A DNA stretch of 60,000 nt. It comes from Tubulanus polymorphus (Eukaryota; Nemertea; Palaeonemertea; Tubulaniformes; Tubulanidae). Location: positions 10,160,850 to 10,220,849 of the forward strand of contig NC_134029.1 of NCBI RefSeq assembly GCF_964204645.1. The letters are read 5' to 3'. The translations under genes and the position numbers were made by a program. Shown here in pieces: positions 3,073 through 12,233 of the stretch; within the stretch, counting starts at the first letter, position 1; every line of letters starts with the position of its first letter. The notes under the pieces were generated by a model. The model searched no databases. It saw only the letters and a program-made list of their open reading frames with translations, and was not told the DNA's origin.

Positions 3073-3399
3073 AGCCGGACGTAGGTCAGCCTTGCGACGC
3101 GATGCGATCCTCGCGTTGCATCGCAAGTTTCGGTGCAAGTCGGTTGCGATACGATTGTCAGCGACTGTGTGCGACTAGTTTCTGCCAGTCGCAAGAGCGC
3201 GTCGGTTGGTTGTGACAGTCGTGTCTCGTCGCAGAAAGTAGAACACGTGCAACTCCTTGTGACTGGCGTTGCTGAAAGTCGCAACCCGTCGCAAGGGAGC
3301 GTAGGTCGATGAGTCGTTGCGACACAATCGTCGCTGGCGGTCGCAGTGATAGGCGTCGCAGTGAATCACAAGCCGTCGCAAGGCCGACCTACGCCCTGC
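3073..3399. mobile_element. TTAA-flanked MITE 1 (R copy 1)
   Basis: The ends AGCCGGACGTAGGTCAGCCT and, inverted, GCAGGGCGTAGGTCGGCCTT pair over about 28 bp and both abut TTAA (3069-3072, 3400-3403). The interior is packed with GTCGCAA/TTGCGAC words in both orientations, so the whole 327 bp is quasi-palindromic. TTAA duplication points to a piggyBac- or Kolobok-type transposase acting in trans. The reading frames across it are by-products of the repeats. Confidence 0.6.
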
Positions 3400-3766
3400 T
3401 TAAATCATAAGAAATTAATGAAATACCAGTTTCATTTATGATGAAAAAACTCAAATGAAAAGTCTGGCTTATAAAGCTGTCTGCTCAGACGAAATTTTCA
3501 AAAAAACCTTCATTTTTGGCAATAAAATTGATAATTGTGATTGATCGTTGCAAGTCACAGCCAGTTAATCACTATGCATTTTAATAAATCTTGATTCCTC
3601 CTTTACAGTGAACTTAGCTTTAACCTAGTAGAGGCTACTAGCCTATGTAGGCCTATGTATATGCGTAGGCCTAAAATCTGGACAGATTGGTCGTAGGCCT
3701 ATTGAATTACAACCCACCTAAATATCGTAAATTTTGTTTTGAAGTTCAATCCAATGAGTCCGTTAA

Positions 3767-4054
3767 CCCTTTCAGTGCTGACTAATTAATACCCTATAGT
3801 GCTGAAGATAATTTGAAAATTTTGAAAAATTCCACCCTAGTGTGTTGAATAACGGGAATACCACTATAGTGCGTCTACACCGCGGTGCGGTGTATCGTTA
3901 GTTACTGATATTTCACTATGTTTGACTGGTGCTGCCATCTTTCAATAGAGATAATTAGTAATTACTAATTAAATCAATACACTGCAGTGCGGTGTACTAG
4001 CAAAATCCATCACTGATTTGTACACCGCACTGCGGTGTAGACGCACTGAAAGGG
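3767..4054. mobile_element. TTAA-flanked MITE 2, absent from R copy 2
   Basis: A 288-bp insert with terminal CCCTTTCAGTGC / GCACTGAAAGGG and flanking TTAA (3763-3766, 4055-4058). Sub-terminal words of the type GTCTACACCGCAGTGCGGTG occur in both orientations. The corresponding place in R copy 2 (46004-46007) has a single TTAA with the same flanks joined directly, i.e. an empty site. CCC ends with TTAA are characteristic of piggyBac-type MITEs. Confidence 0.75.
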
Positions 4055-5050
4055 TTAATAAACGCAACAATTATACTGTGTTTGTTTAGTAAAGCTCAGT
4101 ACCGGTAGGCCTAAAGCCGCGTAAAACTCGATAAACACTTCAAGCGACACAGCAAACGATCTCCTTTCCCCCACAGCGAACGCTTACTCCGAATGTCAAG
4201 TGTGAGTCCAGCATACGGAAAGGAGTGTGTTATATACTTGTATTTAGTAAATACCTTGTGCATTTGACAATGATCGGCATGTACTGTAGGAAATATAGAG
4301 TATTGATGGTATTGATATAGAGGTTGAAGCCCGCGGCCGAATAAAGTAATATATTTTTTTATTTTGATACCTCGTCGACGTAACAGCTTTTCTCCGCTAT
4401 ATCTCTTCGGCGTGTTTAGTTTAGGCCTACGATTCCCCGGTACACTAAAGATTTAACTTAGTAAATACACGGTTAATTCGGTAAAGAAAAATAGGTATTG
4501 TTAAACTAACTCCTTGATACCCGCAGCCAAATCACTGGTAATAATAAATTAATTTGTACTCGATTTGATTCTCATGATGAGGAGAAACTCGCAGCTGATC
4601 CCCGGAACGACGATGTAGTAACACACGTCGATTCGTCGATTTTTACGGCTCGACAGTGCTTTTAAAATCTAAAGTAGTAAATTTCCAGTGTATAGGTAAT
4701 ATGATTTGATGAGGAAAATGGGCTATTGTTAAAATCACTGTTTGAAGACCGCGACTGAATGTGAAGTCTGCGGCAATAAATTAGTTCATTTATACTTGAA
4801 TTGATAATCGAAGTGACAGTCGGCCTGCGGGTTGATTTTGGGATGACGACTCGAAAAACATGTCACCCCATTGAATGGGGCTAAATTTTCGATGTTTACG
4901 GCCCGACAGCGCTTTTGTAACGATGATTCGTGAAAAAACACGCAGGCTATTTGTAGATCTCAGTGAGCTGAACGATATTATATGGATTGTATATGAAACA
5001 GCGGTAAGGTAACAAAGCCTATGTTCTTTTGGTAAAAATAGTGTGGAAGA

Positions 5051-5070
5051 AAATAATAATAATAATAATC
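5051..5070. repeat. (AAT)n microsatellite
   Basis: About six AAT units, inside R copy 1. Confidence 0.8.
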
Positions 5071-5199
5071 ACGCGGATATCAATAGGGTTTTCTGTGAAA
5101 TAACAGAAAACCCTAATAATCAAATGTGTACTATTTGAATAAGTAACCTCAGTTTTTGGTTGTTTGCGGCTTGTATCATCTGTCTGATGTACGATCGAT

Positions 5200-5385
5200 T
5201 GGCCCTATCTAAATCTGTAGCCTGGGAATCCCCTCATCAGCATTCACATGCCGGGTGCGACCTCGCATGCCAGCAGTCGTTCTGCTGTCAGCGCCATTTA
5301 TCTGGGATTCGAACCCACCCGCGGAATTCATTTACTGTTCGGAACCGTCAGCGCCAGCCCTACGAGCCATTATTGGTCCGGTCAT
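5200..5385 (-). repeat. tRNA-derived SINE-like element
   Basis: On the minus strand a tRNA-like head reads from near 5380 (GGCTCGTAGGGCTGGCGCTG, A-box-like) to a good B box, GGGTTCGAATCCC, at 5304-5317, followed by a non-tRNA body. The acceptor stem does not pair, so this is a SINE or tRNA-like remnant, not a tRNA gene. Confidence 0.45.
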
Positions 5386-5645
5386 AAATTGTCAGAATTC
5401 ACTGGGGGTTAAATAATACTGGTTAGACCAATGGACGTTCAGAATATACGACTTAGGCGCAGTAAGTAACAAAAGCGACTGAGACATTGCTACCAGATAG
5501 GCGATTATCCGACTTGACCGGCTACGGCTTAGGTGAATAGGAAAGCATTACTTAATAAAGGAAACTGAAAATTTTTTTATATTGCATCGAGTTGAGCGGT
5601 TATACGAGTTGGTCGGATCCGACTTAGGCAGAGTTTACTTGTACT

Positions 5646-6066
5646 ACACTATGATGATGTTTGTCAACTTGATTACAAATCGCCTGTAAACATGTCCACT
5701 TTGGTATTGAATAAGATGTACATGTATGTACCGTGTATTTTAGAAAATGTCCCTATACATAATCAGAACTAGTGATGGCACACGCTCTATTTAACGTACA
5801 GCTGGTTTCTTTTTCATTACTGTTTAAACATCAATGGCCGTGCAGTTTTTGGCACACATTCTTGGTGAAAGTTTTGTGGATTATGCAGTAGTCCCTGTCT
5901 GATCTGGAAGTTTAATTCGGATTTTGGTCCTGCAATCGAGATTTTATTTACAGTCCACCTATACATAAGTGTTGATCATGACGTTTAGTCCAGATTCTCG
6001 TAAACCACATGGGTGTCATTGGTCAAAATGATTGGCATTTAACAGTTTACTTAAGTAAGCCGTCTT
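5646..6066. other. Intergenic DNA, nothing recognised
   Basis: AT-rich, no ORF or repeat that I can support. Confidence 0.4.
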
Positions 6067-8437: not shown

Positions 8438-8443
8438 TATGCC
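8438..8443. repeat. Target-site duplication TATGCC, left copy
   Basis: The six bases TATGCC directly precede the element and recur directly after it at 12228-12233. A 6-bp duplication is the Polinton/Maverick hallmark. Confidence 0.85.
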
Positions 8444-8450
8444 AGTAAAT

Positions 8451-8586
8451 AGGAATTAGTTGTTCTGTACCAAAGGTCGAACGGTCGAGCTCGTAAAAAA
8501 TAAAAATAAATTCTCGCACGCTCGAATTTATTTTTATTTTTTACTCACTCGACCCCTCAACCTTTGATATAGAACAACTAATTCCT
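8451..8586. repeat. Left terminal palindrome (hairpin-forming)
   Basis: An imperfect inverted repeat of 136 bases: outer arm AGGAATTAGTTGTTCT, inner arm AGAACAACTAATTCCT, a shared AAAAAATAAAAATAAATT block, and an apex near CTCGCACGCTCG. Arm mismatches (for example GGTCGAACGG against CCCCTCAACC) are identical in the right-end copy, so both ends have the same orientation. Confidence 0.85.
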
Positions 8587-8612
8587 ATCTACTCTTAAAA
8601 TATTCATATTTA

Positions 8613-8809
8613 AAAAGTGTGAGTAAAGTGTTAGCATAATAATCTAGATAAATAAGATCAAATATAGATTTTGAATAATAAAAAATCAATTTTAAACATA
8701 AAAAGTGTGAGTAAAGTGCAAACATAAAATGTGTGAGAAAAAGTAACGAGTAATTAACAAGTTGTTAGAATTAAAATCAATTTCAAACATAAAAATTGTG
8801 AGCAAAGTG
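8613..8809 (+). promoter_or_regulatory. Iteron-like repeats in the left TIR
   Basis: Four copies of a motif close to AAAAGTGTGAGTAAAGTG lie at 8613-8630, 8701-8718, about 8726-8744 (variant) and 8792-8809 (variant). They are all in one orientation, between the terminal palindrome and ORF1, and are mirrored in the right TIR. Directly repeated sites beside a terminus suggest binding sites for a replication or transposition protein, or promoter elements for ORF1. Confidence 0.6.
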
Positions 8810-8850
8810 TGAAATAATTCATATTTAAATCATTGAATATTTATATTTGA

Positions 8851-9513
8851 ATGAGTTTTGATAAGTGTTTTGTTATTAAAATGAAGAAAGAAGAAGAACC
8901 CAACTTCAAAATCGAAATAAAAGAAACCAATAAATTATTTTCACAGTTTAACATTAGAAATTATATTTCAGCAACAAATTTAGTGTCCGCAAGACATTAT
9001 AAAATCGATAACATTACTATGATTAATCAAATATCAAATGAAACATATTTAATTACTGAACTAGTAGATACTTTTGATAATGGAATAAAAAATCCTAAGA
9101 TATTTAAAACAGTTTTAAAATTAAAAGGAACTTTAGATGAAAACATAATAAATATTCTTAAAATTCCTTTCAATGAAAGAAAAAGTGATATAATACTTTC
9201 AAAAGATTATAATGATTTGATTAACTTCAGAATTGAAAAAAGAAAATTATATTATTTCAATTTTGATAATAAACAATTTATCTATAATGAAAATTCATCA
9301 AATATTGGAATTCAATGTGAATCAGTTAATAATAATTCTTATAAAGATATTGCAGTTCAATGTAACTTAGATGATGAATTTAGAAAATTCAATCCTAATG
9401 AAAAAGTGTATTGTTATTGTGGTGGCAAATATTTAAAATCACATAAATCAAAGCATTATCAGACAATTAAACATATCAATTATGAAAAGAATAATAATTC
9501 TATATTGAAATAA
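8851..9513 (+). CDS. ORF1 of the Polinton-like element, zinc-finger protein of unknown function
   Basis: An intact 220-codon ORF with an ATG start, rich in K, N, I and E. Residues 1-59 lie in the TIR and are duplicated at the right end. Near the C-terminus are Cys188 and Cys190 (YCYCGGKY) and His202 and His208 (KHYQTIKH), a CxC-X11-H-X5-H treble-clef-like pattern. As far as I recall, similar CxCGG..H..H tails occur in many proteins of Polinton-like viruses, virophages and giant viruses. No enzymatic motif is seen. Upstream iterons may control it. The function is unknown; DNA or RNA binding is a guess from the finger. Confidence 0.65.
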   Translation: MSFDKCFVIKMKKEEEPNFKIEIKETNKLFSQFNIRNYISATNLVSARHYKIDNITMINQISNETYLITELVDTFDNGIKNPKIFKTVLKLKGTLDENIINILKIPFNERKSDIILSKDYNDLINFRIEKRKLYYFNFDNKQFIYNENSSNIGIQCESVNNNSYKDIAVQCNLDDEFRKFNPNEKVYCYCGGKYLKSHKSKHYQTIKHINYEKNNNSILK

Positions 9514-9623
9514 GATTAAGCTGTATGTTTCAAATATCATAACTCAAAAATAATAATTTAACTCTAAATATTCATATTCAAAATAAGATATTTTATAAGC
9601 TGTTTAATTTTTCTCTTAAATAA

Positions 9624-9821
9624 ATGGATGGTTTCATCGCAACTGGGAAAAGTGATTTGAAACATTATCTTGTAGCAGGAGAGTTAATATTAGCTGCATT
9701 ATACTTTTACTATGAGAATATTAGTAAAGATTTGATGAATGAAAATATTAAACTGAGCAATAAATTGAAAAAATTGAATGGAAATAAAAATAATCATAAA
9801 AAAGTTATTGAATCAGATTAG
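9624..9821 (+). CDS. ORF2 of the Polinton-like element, small membrane protein candidate
   Basis: 65 codons from ATG to TAG, 110 bases after ORF1 and on the same strand. Residues 14-30 form a hydrophobic stretch (YLVAGELILAALYFYY) that could span a membrane once; residues 35-60 are polar, with heptad-like I/L spacing, and could form a short coiled coil. Its short length and AT-rich composition leave some risk of a chance ORF, but placement in a run of same-strand ORFs supports it. No family recognised. Confidence 0.4.
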   Translation: MDGFIATGKSDLKHYLVAGELILAALYFYYENISKDLMNENIKLSNKLKKLNGNKNNHKKVIESD

Positions 9822-9910
9822 TGAATTAATTAAATACATAAATTAGTGAAAATATATTAAACTTATTACATCTAATATATAGAAATCAACAGAATATTAA
9901 ATCAATTATT

Positions 9911-10144
9911 ATGCTTACAGGTTTATTTTCTTTTTCGATTTATAGTATTAAGCAGTTGTCAGAATTCTTTGATAGCTGTAAAATTAGATATACAGAATTA
10001 AAAGAAAATATAAATTATATTTCAGATCGAATAAATAATATTAAGTGTTGTGAAGTATGTAATAAAAGATATAAAAATTCAAAGAGTTTAAAAACTCATA
10101 AATATATTCATGAATTGAATGATAAACTGTCTAATTCAAATTGA
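9911..10144 (+). CDS. ORF3 of the Polinton-like element, single C2H2 zinc-finger protein
   Basis: 77 codons, ATG to TGA, 90 bases after ORF2. A hydrophobic N-terminus (LFSFSIYSI) is followed by a helical part and one classical finger: Cys47-X2-Cys50-X12-His63-X3-His67 (CEVCNKRYKNSKSLKTHKYIH). Codon use and AT content match ORF1. One finger alone would bind DNA weakly, so it may dimerise or bind protein (inference). It is a second zinc-binding protein in the same small element. Confidence 0.5.
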   Translation: MLTGLFSFSIYSIKQLSEFFDSCKIRYTELKENINYISDRINNIKCCEVCNKRYKNSKSLKTHKYIHELNDKLSNSN

Positions 10145-10225
10145 GAATAAGACTGTTAAATTAGCTGAAATGTATGAAATATTGTAAAAATATTAGTTAA
10201 TCAAAAAAGGGGGTTGAGGTATCAA

Positions 10226-10280
10226 TGTATTAAATACGTATTAAATACGTATTAATGTATTAAATACGTATTAATGTATC
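10226..10280. repeat. Short tandem repeat ATTAAATACGT
   Basis: Three to four overlapping copies of ATTAAATACGT, with ATTAATGTATTAAATACGT variants, lie between ORF3 and ORF4. The repeat TACGTA is itself palindromic. Confidence 0.7.
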
Positions 10281-10768
10281 CAATAAGGGTAAAAAATATT
10301 TTAAAGCGTAAGGTTTCAGCGAACTCTAACTCTTTTTGAATTTTAACCTATTTTAATAAAAATTTGATATATAAATGTGCTCAAGATTAATTAAAGTTCG
10401 ACACGTATAAAAACATATCCGGGTGATTATTCAGGTATGCATTATTTCATAAAATTTAAGAATACAGATTTTTTACAGAATTGAAAAAAGTTGCTGCTAA
10501 TGATAATTATGATGATAAAAGTGATAACTTTGATGAAATAATTCAATATTACAGTTATGAAGATTTTTCACAGGATGTAATAAATGAAATAAGAAAGGAT
10601 ACAAAAAATAAATATAGAAATATAAGTGAAGACAACTTAAACCAATATATTTATTTAACTTATGAATTGTATGCTAAGAATTTGAATTCTGTTGATGGTT
10701 ATCATACAAAACTATTAGGTGAAGTTGAAGGTAATAGAAAATCACAAGAATTAAAAGATGCATGGCAC

Positions 10769-10858
10769 TGTCACCCTGATATAATTTCATAATCATATAG
10801 ATCTACAATGTCATATCGAACAGTTCATAATATTTCATAGCTCTACTACATATTAATG

Positions 10859-10903
<45 letters not shown>

Positions 10904-11270
10904 TGATATAACTTATGACTATAGTGTCAATATGTGCTTTAAGGTCGTAATCAACATGTGACATTACTTAATTAGCTATAGTCAGTGCTCATCGATAATT
11001 AATTAATGTCTCTCAAACATTTCACTAGGTGTTTGTTTGTGAGTCCTGATGTCTACAACTTGTCTGACCCCTAGTTCTCGCATTATACTCATGATTCTGT
11101 ATATAAAGACTATGTAAAGCTATGATAATCATTCTCATTCCGGGATGCAATAAAGATTGTACATATAAGGTTTAACTGCCTTGTTGTTCCTGATGGATGG
11201 AATCCTGTACCGCTGGTGTAAATGCTAGTTCCCCCAGCCAGCCTGCCGATACAACAACCAGCCGGTTACA
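10769..11270 (+). mobile_element. Solo LTR inside ORF4
   Basis: 502 bp beginning TGTCACC and ending GGTTACA (7-bp ends, one mismatch), flanked by the 4-bp direct repeat GCAC at 10765-10768 and 11271-11274. It contains a TATATAAAG box near 11100 and AATAAA near 11147, in the order of an LTR promoter and polyadenylation site, and an internal (AAT)n. The GC-richer 3' part contrasts with the host element. The internal region is gone, as expected after LTR-LTR recombination. A 4-bp duplication fits Ty3/Gypsy or related elements. Confidence 0.75.
10857..10903. repeat. (AAT)n microsatellite
   Basis: About 15 AAT units inside the solo LTR. Confidence 0.95.
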
Positions 11271-11330
11271 GCACAAATTGTTTTTAGAATTAGAATCAGA
11301 AAAGTAATTCAAAATATGAATATAATACCC

Positions 11331-11627
11331 CTTATGTCTTTATTGTCTTTAGTACTTTTAGTACATAAAGAATAAATCTTTATATTATAAGTAGTTTCAA
11401 AAGTAAAATAGAACTACTAAACTACTAAAGAGATAAAGACATAAATATATATATTACTGTTTCAATAATCATATTTATTCATCTGATGGATTTTAAATAT
11501 TACTGTTTCAATAATAATATTTATTTATCATATATAAAAATTATTTATATATTTATTTTTTTAAGTACTAATAAAATAAAGATATATTCTTTATGTACTA
11601 AAAGTACTAAAGACAATAAAGACACAA
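11331..11627. repeat. Inverted repeat abutting the right TIR
   Basis: Arms 11331-11383 and 11575-11627 (about 53 bp, core GTCTTTAGTACTTTTAGTAC) are near-exact inverses. The right arm stops exactly where the TIR begins at 11628. The loop contains a direct repeat of ATATTACTGTTTCAATAAT. Confidence 0.75.
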
Positions 11628-11805
11628 GATTAATCATAGTAATGTTATCGATTTTATAATGTCTTGCGGACACTAAATTTGTTGCTGAAATATAATTTCT
11701 AATGTTAAACTGTGAAAATAATTTATTGGTTTCTTTTATTTCGATTTTGAAGTTGGGTTCTTCTTCTTTCTTCATTTTAATAACAAAACTTTTATTAAAA
11801 CTCAT
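11545..11805 (-). pseudogene. Truncated duplicate of ORF1 created by the TIR
   Basis: An 86-codon frame whose first 59 residues match ORF1 with two substitutions (D4N, C6S). The remaining residues are read-through of AT-rich inverted-repeat DNA and are hydrophobic. The zinc finger is missing. It may be transcribed from the same TIR promoter but is probably a by-product. Confidence 0.6.
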
Positions 11806-12227
11806 TCAAATATAAATATTCAATGATTTAAATATGAATTATTTCAATCACACTTTGCTCACACTTGTTATGTTTGAAATTGATTTTAATTCTAACAACT
11901 CGTTAATTACTCGTTACTTTTTATCACACATTTTATGTTTGCGCTTTACTCACACTTTACTCACACTTTTTATGTTTAAAATTGATTTTTTATTATTCGA
12001 AATCTATATTTGATCTTACTTATCTAGATTATTATGCTAACACTTTACTCACACTTTTTACATATGAATATTTTAAGAGTAAATAGGAATTAGTTGTTCT
12101 ATATCAAAGGTTGAGGGGTCGAGTGAGTAAAAAATAAAAATAAATTCGAGCGTGCGAGAATTTATTTTTATTTTTTACGAGCTCGACCGTTCGACCTTTG
12201 GTACAGAACAACTAATTCCTATTTACT
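11628..12227 (-). repeat. Right terminal inverted repeat of the Polinton-like element
   Basis: A 600-bp inverse of the left TIR, containing the right terminal palindrome (12085-12220), iterons and the 5' end of ORF1. Read on the minus strand, the duplicated ORF1 start (ATG at 11805) runs 59 codons and then into unrelated sequence, to a stop at 11545. Confidence 0.85.
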
Positions 12228-12233
12228 TATGCC
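12228..12233. repeat. Target-site duplication TATGCC, right copy
   Basis: Direct repeat of 8438-8443. Confidence 0.85.

Follow-up and report, generated by a model that had tools for sequence, protein, structure and literature searches.

The stretch of DNA analysed here (the window) spans 60 kb of contig NC_134029.1 of Tubulanus polymorphus, and positions 8444-12227 of it hold an element of 3,784 bp, one integrated copy of a multi-copy family. Its borders read TATGCC / AGTAAATAGGAATT...AATTCCTATTTACT / TATGCC, with a 6-bp target-site duplication (TSD) enclosing AG...CT termini; these features, and terminal inverted repeats (TIRs) of 585 and 600 bp, had been claimed in a preliminary description of the window and are all present. 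The TIRs are 95.7% identical across 600 columns, and the GC content of the element is 24.0%, versus 37.6% for the whole window. Of four small open reading frames (ORFs) described at the same time, three (ORF1, ORF2 and ORF3; 220, 65 and 77 aa) are good. The fourth (~10469-10792) was rejected as a gene, since its frame, though open, lacks its own start codon; it is a ~107-residue match, one with 63 matches in the genome, to the C-terminal region of a 394-aa zinc-finger-like protein. The 394-aa protein is found elsewhere near the ATPase and other genes linked to Polintons (neighbours assigned by eye). The window copy carries scraps of Polinton-linked genes and is thus a mosaic. It also retains about 120 bp around the start of a larger gene, here called BIG, at 98% identity, the rest of BIG being gone. 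The segment at 10791-11320 gave no match longer than 80 bp in the other copies compared and is perhaps a later insertion; the element as a whole has no Rfam match. Coordinates are collected in Table 1.

Table 1. Features of the element in the window (positions of the 60-kb stretch).
Feature	Position	Strand	Remarks
Left TSD	8438-8443	none	TATGCC
Left TIR	8444-9028	+	585 bp; takes in the start of ORF1
Left terminal hairpin	8444-8593		stem formed by outer and inner 24 nt
ORF1	8851-9513	+	220 aa; C-terminal CxCGGKY...H...H zinc-finger-like motif (by eye)
ORF2	9624-9821	+	65 aa; hydrophobic stretch (by eye)
ORF3	9911-10144	+	77 aa from its ATG (open frame 100 aa); C2H2-like, below Pfam cut-off
Short tandem repeats	10219-10285	+	3' of ORF3; present in relatives too
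BIG 5' flank and first codons	10280-10399	+	98% identical to L047; frame stops after ~11 codons (by eye)
C-terminal piece of 394-aa protein	10469-10792	+	zinc-finger-like
Segment with (TAA)n microsatellite	10791-11320	none	
AT-rich inverted repeat	11306-11653		arms 102 nt, 81%; inner edge of right TIR
Right TIR	11628-12227	-	600 bp; inverted copy of left end
First 59 ORF1 codons, repeated	11629-11805	-	in right TIR, where the inverted left-end copy stops
Right terminal hairpin	12078-12227		
Right TSD	12228-12233	none	TATGCC

The rule of TIRs and a 6-bp TSD read from the window copy extends to its relatives. We searched the assembly (267.8 Mb in 77 contigs; G000) and found that this one genome holds more than 100 copies of the family: a search with TIR DNA found 89 matches (40 of 1629 candidates were scored) and one with ORF1 found 161 (150 of 679). 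Nineteen ORF1 loci were fetched (L024-L042), and both ends were found in nine; with the window and L047 this made 11 delimited copies, of 3784, 3493, 1629, 6079, 2271, 5033, 3656, 5017, 4632, 5940 and 7741 bp. An exact 6-bp TSD, expected by chance about once in 4096 per copy, flanks ten of the 11, each with a different sequence (TATGCC, AGCGAT, CACATG, TTCAAC, GATGTT, GCCGGG, TACTAG, CCTACT, AACAAC and ACTGCC), and none has a TSD of another length. The eleventh, a whole-length palindrome (L042, 1906-7845), has no TSD; it is possibly rearranged, or a product of recombination between copies. AGTA stands at 21 of the 22 ends, the left end of L042 (ATTA) being the exception, and TIR length ranges from 145 bp up to the whole element. 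In the other ten ORF1 loci and in L046 one or both ends were not recognisable, and these are uninformative on the TSD.

ORF1-3 are conserved and, judged from aligned copies, under purifying selection on average, as a compact element with genes of its own had led one to expect. Across all copies in hand with at least half the ORF length, summed nonsynonymous over summed synonymous divergence (sum dN / sum dS) was 0.41 for ORF1 (29 copies, 22 stop-free), 0.17 for ORF2 (25 copies, 22 stop-free) and 0.24 for ORF3 (20 copies, 18 stop-free). Smaller, hand-picked sets gave 0.42 for ORF1 (median 0.39, n=15), 0.07 for ORF2 (first 39 codons, n=8) and 0.20 for ORF3 (n=10); the ORF2 set leaned towards good matches, which makes 0.17 the better estimate. 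Because selection may act on source copies, ancestry is shared and the two arms of an element are not independent, all of these values are averages. Apart from the window's own, the listed ORF1 matches are 75-89% identical to the query, and 92 of 150 rows are stop-free; ORF3 was scored at 150 places of 330 candidates, mostly stop-free (by eye). ORF1 has no Pfam match, no transposase domain, and no relative in a set of 5.8 billion proteins (345 candidates checked), and ORF3 has a weak C2H2 match. We note that ORF1 C-termini come in three versions behind a common body, which resembles tail swapping. A second ORF1 group, with frames of 225-227 aa and 78-80% identity, occurs as inverted pairs separated by up to 9 kb and may represent larger members.

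The apparent helper lies in the same genome, where stretches of Polintons, elements with 6-bp TSDs and AG ends, share the terminal hairpin of the family and where Polinton genes are abundant. One stretch (L045) has this hairpin at its start and codes for PolB (PF03175, E 4.7e-9); another (L043) carries genes for an rve integrase (PF00665, 1e-7) and for an ATPase of the Pox_A32 type (PF04665, 2e-11). The ATPase matched in 150 of 150 scored places at 92-100% identity (1577 first-look candidates), and the PolB piece in 149 of 149 (1599 candidates). For each of three Polinton genes there were ~1600-1800 first-look candidates, a very large load of young genes; these counts refer to genes and not to complete hairpin-ended elements, no Polinton having been delimited at both ends. 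C10:6521402-6536863 was dropped as a clean full-length Polinton when its sequence showed the left end of another element inside. A capsid gene was never formally identified; Polinton-linked genes served as probes. Between PolB and the integrase, L043 has LINE (long interspersed nuclear element)-like ORFs at 3287-5924 (by eye), and a Polinton-like stretch at L033 6637-7325 contains repeats common to the inner parts of the palindromic copies L041 and L042.

The end of the window element matches those of L043, L044 and L045 at 96%, 95% and 87% over about 110-160 bp, and six compact copies have, immediately 5' of ORF1, a 93-bp block with 89-98% identity to L045. ORF1 itself is absent from these three Polinton stretches. 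Conversely, the probes found only scraps of Polinton core genes in the 11 delimited copies, in keeping with their reported absence from the window element: the L045 PolB piece and the L043 integrase had no match, a 197-bp scrap of the PolB region lies in L047, and the ATPase is represented by its last 15 aa in L034 and L040. The match of the window's ORF1 to that of L047 stops where the PolB-region DNA starts. One could suppose that the family is an independent transposon, with ORF1 or BIG as its integrase or transposase and with Polinton-like ends that are convergent or captured; its numerous elements with conserved genes of their own, and the lack of detected ORF1 relatives outside this genome, would agree with that. 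However, the best alignments of the ends to the Polinton hairpin (87-96% over ~100-160 bp) indicate homology and not convergence, ORF1 shows no transposase domain, and a 6-bp TSD with AG ends is an established Polinton trait. We consider this origin very improbable.

Each end is itself a hairpin, a feature that the preliminary description had missed. The outer 150 nt of the window element fold on themselves at -46.7 kcal/mol (z -14.7), much as those of Polinton L045 (z -15.6) and of the family copy L026 (z -14.0). Across eight ends (two elements give two each), the outer and inner 24 nt are paired in 98.4% of cells versus 75.3% in shuffles, and slid controls reach 30-49%. Pairs changed on both sides number 15 of 24 versus 11.4 in shuffles, and the number of pair types is not above shuffles (276/500). 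In five end types, 22-24 of the 24 positions of the outer arm fit the inner arm of the same type, against 9-20 for the inner arms of other types. The hairpins thus covary, a pattern kept either by selection or by copying of one arm from the other. A supposed parvovirus-like flip/flop hairpin at L043 8716-8864 proved to be another element's left end, oriented as usual.

Inverted duplication goes well beyond the ends. L034 and L042 are complete palindromes (98.4% and 99.7%), the latter with ~24 bases left unpaired in the middle (by eye); the flanks of both differ on the two sides, which speaks against an artefact of palindromic reads. Of 28 cases in which neighbouring ORF1 copies lie within 12 kb of each other, 27 have them pointing inward.

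The largest delimited relative, L047 (7741 bp), has Polinton-like ends on both sides and one arm ordered ORF1-BIG-ORF2-ORF3, in which BIG encodes 758 aa; the other arm holds a second, broken BIG. L047 has no large ORF besides BIG, nor was any Pfam domain found in it; no capsid profile search was made. A BIG query found 64 matches in the genome (59 scored of 151 candidates), including five full-length, stop-free copies that are 99-100% identical. Where pieces of BIG reach residue 734 or beyond, 12 of 22 are followed by a same-strand ORF3 344-448 bp downstream (by eye; the ORF3 list comprised 150 of 330 candidates). At L049, which runs on into L035, an arm comprises, in order, a hairpin, a Polinton zinc-finger gene cut to its first 38 codons, BIG, ORF2 and ORF3, and has lost its outermost end. 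Besides L047, L049/L035 and L050, BIG was not found in the other fetched loci. Since the window copy retains the start of BIG, it derives from a BIG-bearing element, and since this remnant sits after ORF3, the copy has been rearranged as well as shortened.

What BIG does was approached through its predicted fold and its residues. The predicted fold is possibly TBP-like, on weak matches; the first model had no Foldseek match in the PDB at E 0.001. BIG holds in order the residue pattern of Rep_trans enzymes: D-x-T-x-D (acidic strand, metal Asp), K-x-Y-x-K (R/K-x-Y-x-K in Rep_trans) and R-x-E. Residues of this type are kept in homologs down to 26-28% identity; 8/8 have the Y, its two flanking K and the D of the metal site, while R-x-E is present in 7/8 (P0007 stops short of it), and the first-strand Asp in 6/8 (P0005 and P0006 begin later). 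The pattern, which was picked after BIG had been seen, occurs in 2 of 20000 shuffles of BIG. The PF02486 profile had no match to BIG or its homologs at the limits used, at which HMMER filters drop weak matches, and P0008 has no relative in phage records. On these residues and models, BIG is possibly a Rep_trans-type tyrosine nickase.

Alternatively, BIG may be a TBP-like DNA-binding regulator in a satellite that uses Polinton replication only. When BIG models were compared with solved structures, TBPs came out on top both times and Rep structures ranked low, and the viral structure matches include TBP/TFIID-like proteins of large DNA viruses. On the other hand, the three motifs are those of Rep_trans catalysis and persist in distant homologs, and the best viral matches of the second model (E 7e-6, unnamed) stand above the TBPs, with an Inoviridae Rep at rank 17 (E 8.4e-3). 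A purely regulatory role for BIG seems to us distinctly unlikely.

We favour the reading that the family is a compact satellite lineage living off the Polintons of the same genome, with a Rep-like initiator of its own, and that the window copy is a reduced derivative; we put its probability at roughly 0.64. The idea of a compact element with its own genes thus stands as far as the conserved ORFs go, but fuller members exist than the window copy, itself a mosaic derived from a larger compact element with BIG, a gene that the preliminary description could not have shown. A further suggestion, a lineage related to Polinton-like viruses, is not supported: nothing found links the element to them, and a pattern scan of IMG/VR, which can miss distant relatives, returned no relative of BIG.

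The family might instead consist of plain non-autonomous Polintons, internally deleted, in which leftover left-end ORF1-3 are carried along, as happens in other transposons with internal deletions. Several observations fit this: (i) the terminal hairpin is held in common and the block upstream of ORF1 is up to 98% identical to a Polinton; (ii) PolB and ATPase scraps lie inside copies, and a Polinton-linked piece in the window; and (iii) in L036 ORF1-3 are followed by Polinton-linked genes, and in L050 BIG comes after Polinton remnants of PolB and another gene. This L050 copy and the low rank of the Rep structures also weigh somewhat against the satellite. At L024, ORF1 is followed after ~20 bp by genes whose relatives adjoin PolB (by eye), and L024 and L036 had suggested that ORF1 is an ordinary Polinton gene. 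This was not borne out by a search with 840 bp across the L024 junction, which none of 40 other matches spanned (40 scored of 1412 candidates); 22 matched on the ORF1 side only and 18 on the Polinton side only. The one tested ORF1/Polinton junction is thus unique among 41 matches, and its two sides overlap by 14 bp, as a template switch at microhomology between co-present templates would leave them; L024 is a chimera of a Polinton and a compact element. Also at odds with simple deletion are ORF1-3 that are mostly open and under purifying selection on average in copies that lack core genes, the absence of ORF1 from the three Polinton stretches examined, and an order BIG-ORF2-ORF3 that recurs across loci. 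We regard an origin by deletion as unlikely, with appreciable weight left to it.

Under the satellite reading, the ends and TSDs suggest that the Polinton integrase would insert the element DNA in trans. BIG, if a nickase, would initiate the element's replication, for which the terminal hairpin is the simplest site; the Polinton polymerase or capsid may be borrowed too, and fold-back copying could maintain the ends. Fold-back and template switching during replication would give rise to inverted duplications of the left end and to copies that are wholly palindromic, internally deleted or chimeric. The window copy would by this route have retained ORF1-ORF2-ORF3, had BIG cut to its start, gained a Polinton-linked scrap, and acquired an inverted copy of its left 0.6 kb as its right end. 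More tentatively, and at somewhat short of even odds, we propose that this is a eukaryotic replicon with a Rep_trans-type (TBP-fold) tyrosine nickase acting at covarying terminal hairpins, a gene-bearing Polinton satellite that switches between linear, palindromic and chimeric forms.

Polintons are the proposed ancestors of several groups of eukaryotic DNA viruses. The family numbers more than 100 copies, has genes that are young and intact, and shares its nucleus with what looks like its helper, so helper use, maintenance of hairpin ends and palindrome formation can be tested. Rep_trans rolling-circle nickases have been described as seemingly confined to bacteria, apart from a relative in archaea; if BIG is one, the enzyme class reaches eukaryotes. 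Some copies have ORFs nearby that we take to be GPCR (G-protein-coupled receptor)-like. The novelty lies in the conserved genes of the family's own, the possible presence in a eukaryote of an enzyme of the Rep_trans type, and the biology of hairpins and palindromes. Entries for non-autonomous Polintons probably exist, perhaps in Repbase. Within titles and the openings of abstracts, literature searches retrieved no small gene-bearing Polinton parasite, and on non-autonomous or derived Polintons only the term 'Polinton-derived'; the parts of PMC11071308, PMC6431247 and PMC12368964 that were consulted describe no non-autonomous Polinton.

Several known systems invite comparison. Transposons in which the TIRs are very long, such as Galileo/Foldback, resemble the family in the length and variability of these repeats, but their genes are unrelated and their ends and TSDs different. 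Protein-primed linear DNA has palindromic deletion derivatives, among them defective adenovirus genomes; there too one end is inverted and duplicated into a long palindrome, with a short centre loop as in L042, whereas copies of the present family are integrated, numerous and often have open conserved genes. The reference list of PMC11071308 includes a title on a hairpin-forming derivative of the kalilo plasmid. Transpovirons, virophages and phage satellites (P4, PLE) are likewise small, gene-bearing DNAs that rely on a larger virus-like helper, as the family may; no sequence relation to them was found, none having been specifically searched for, and the helper proposed here is an endogenous Polinton. 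With Rep_trans proteins (PF02486; RepD/RepDE and the archaeal Rep-Arvir) BIG would share a TBP-like fold, if its models are right, and the acidic, K-x-Y-x-K and R-x-E strands in the same order, as well as a DNA hairpin in the replicon; it differs in its eukaryotic genome, the lack of a detectable sequence-profile match, a long extra C-terminal part, and a linear, integrated element. Polintons/Mavericks (polintoviruses, adintoviruses) have the same 6-bp TSD, AG...CT ends and long TIRs and, in this genome, the same terminal hairpin. Unlike Polintons of 15-20 kb, however, members of the family measure 1.6-7.7 kb, lack PolB, integrase and ATPase genes beyond scraps, carry ORF1, BIG, ORF2 and ORF3 of their own, and have arms that extend up to whole-length palindromes.

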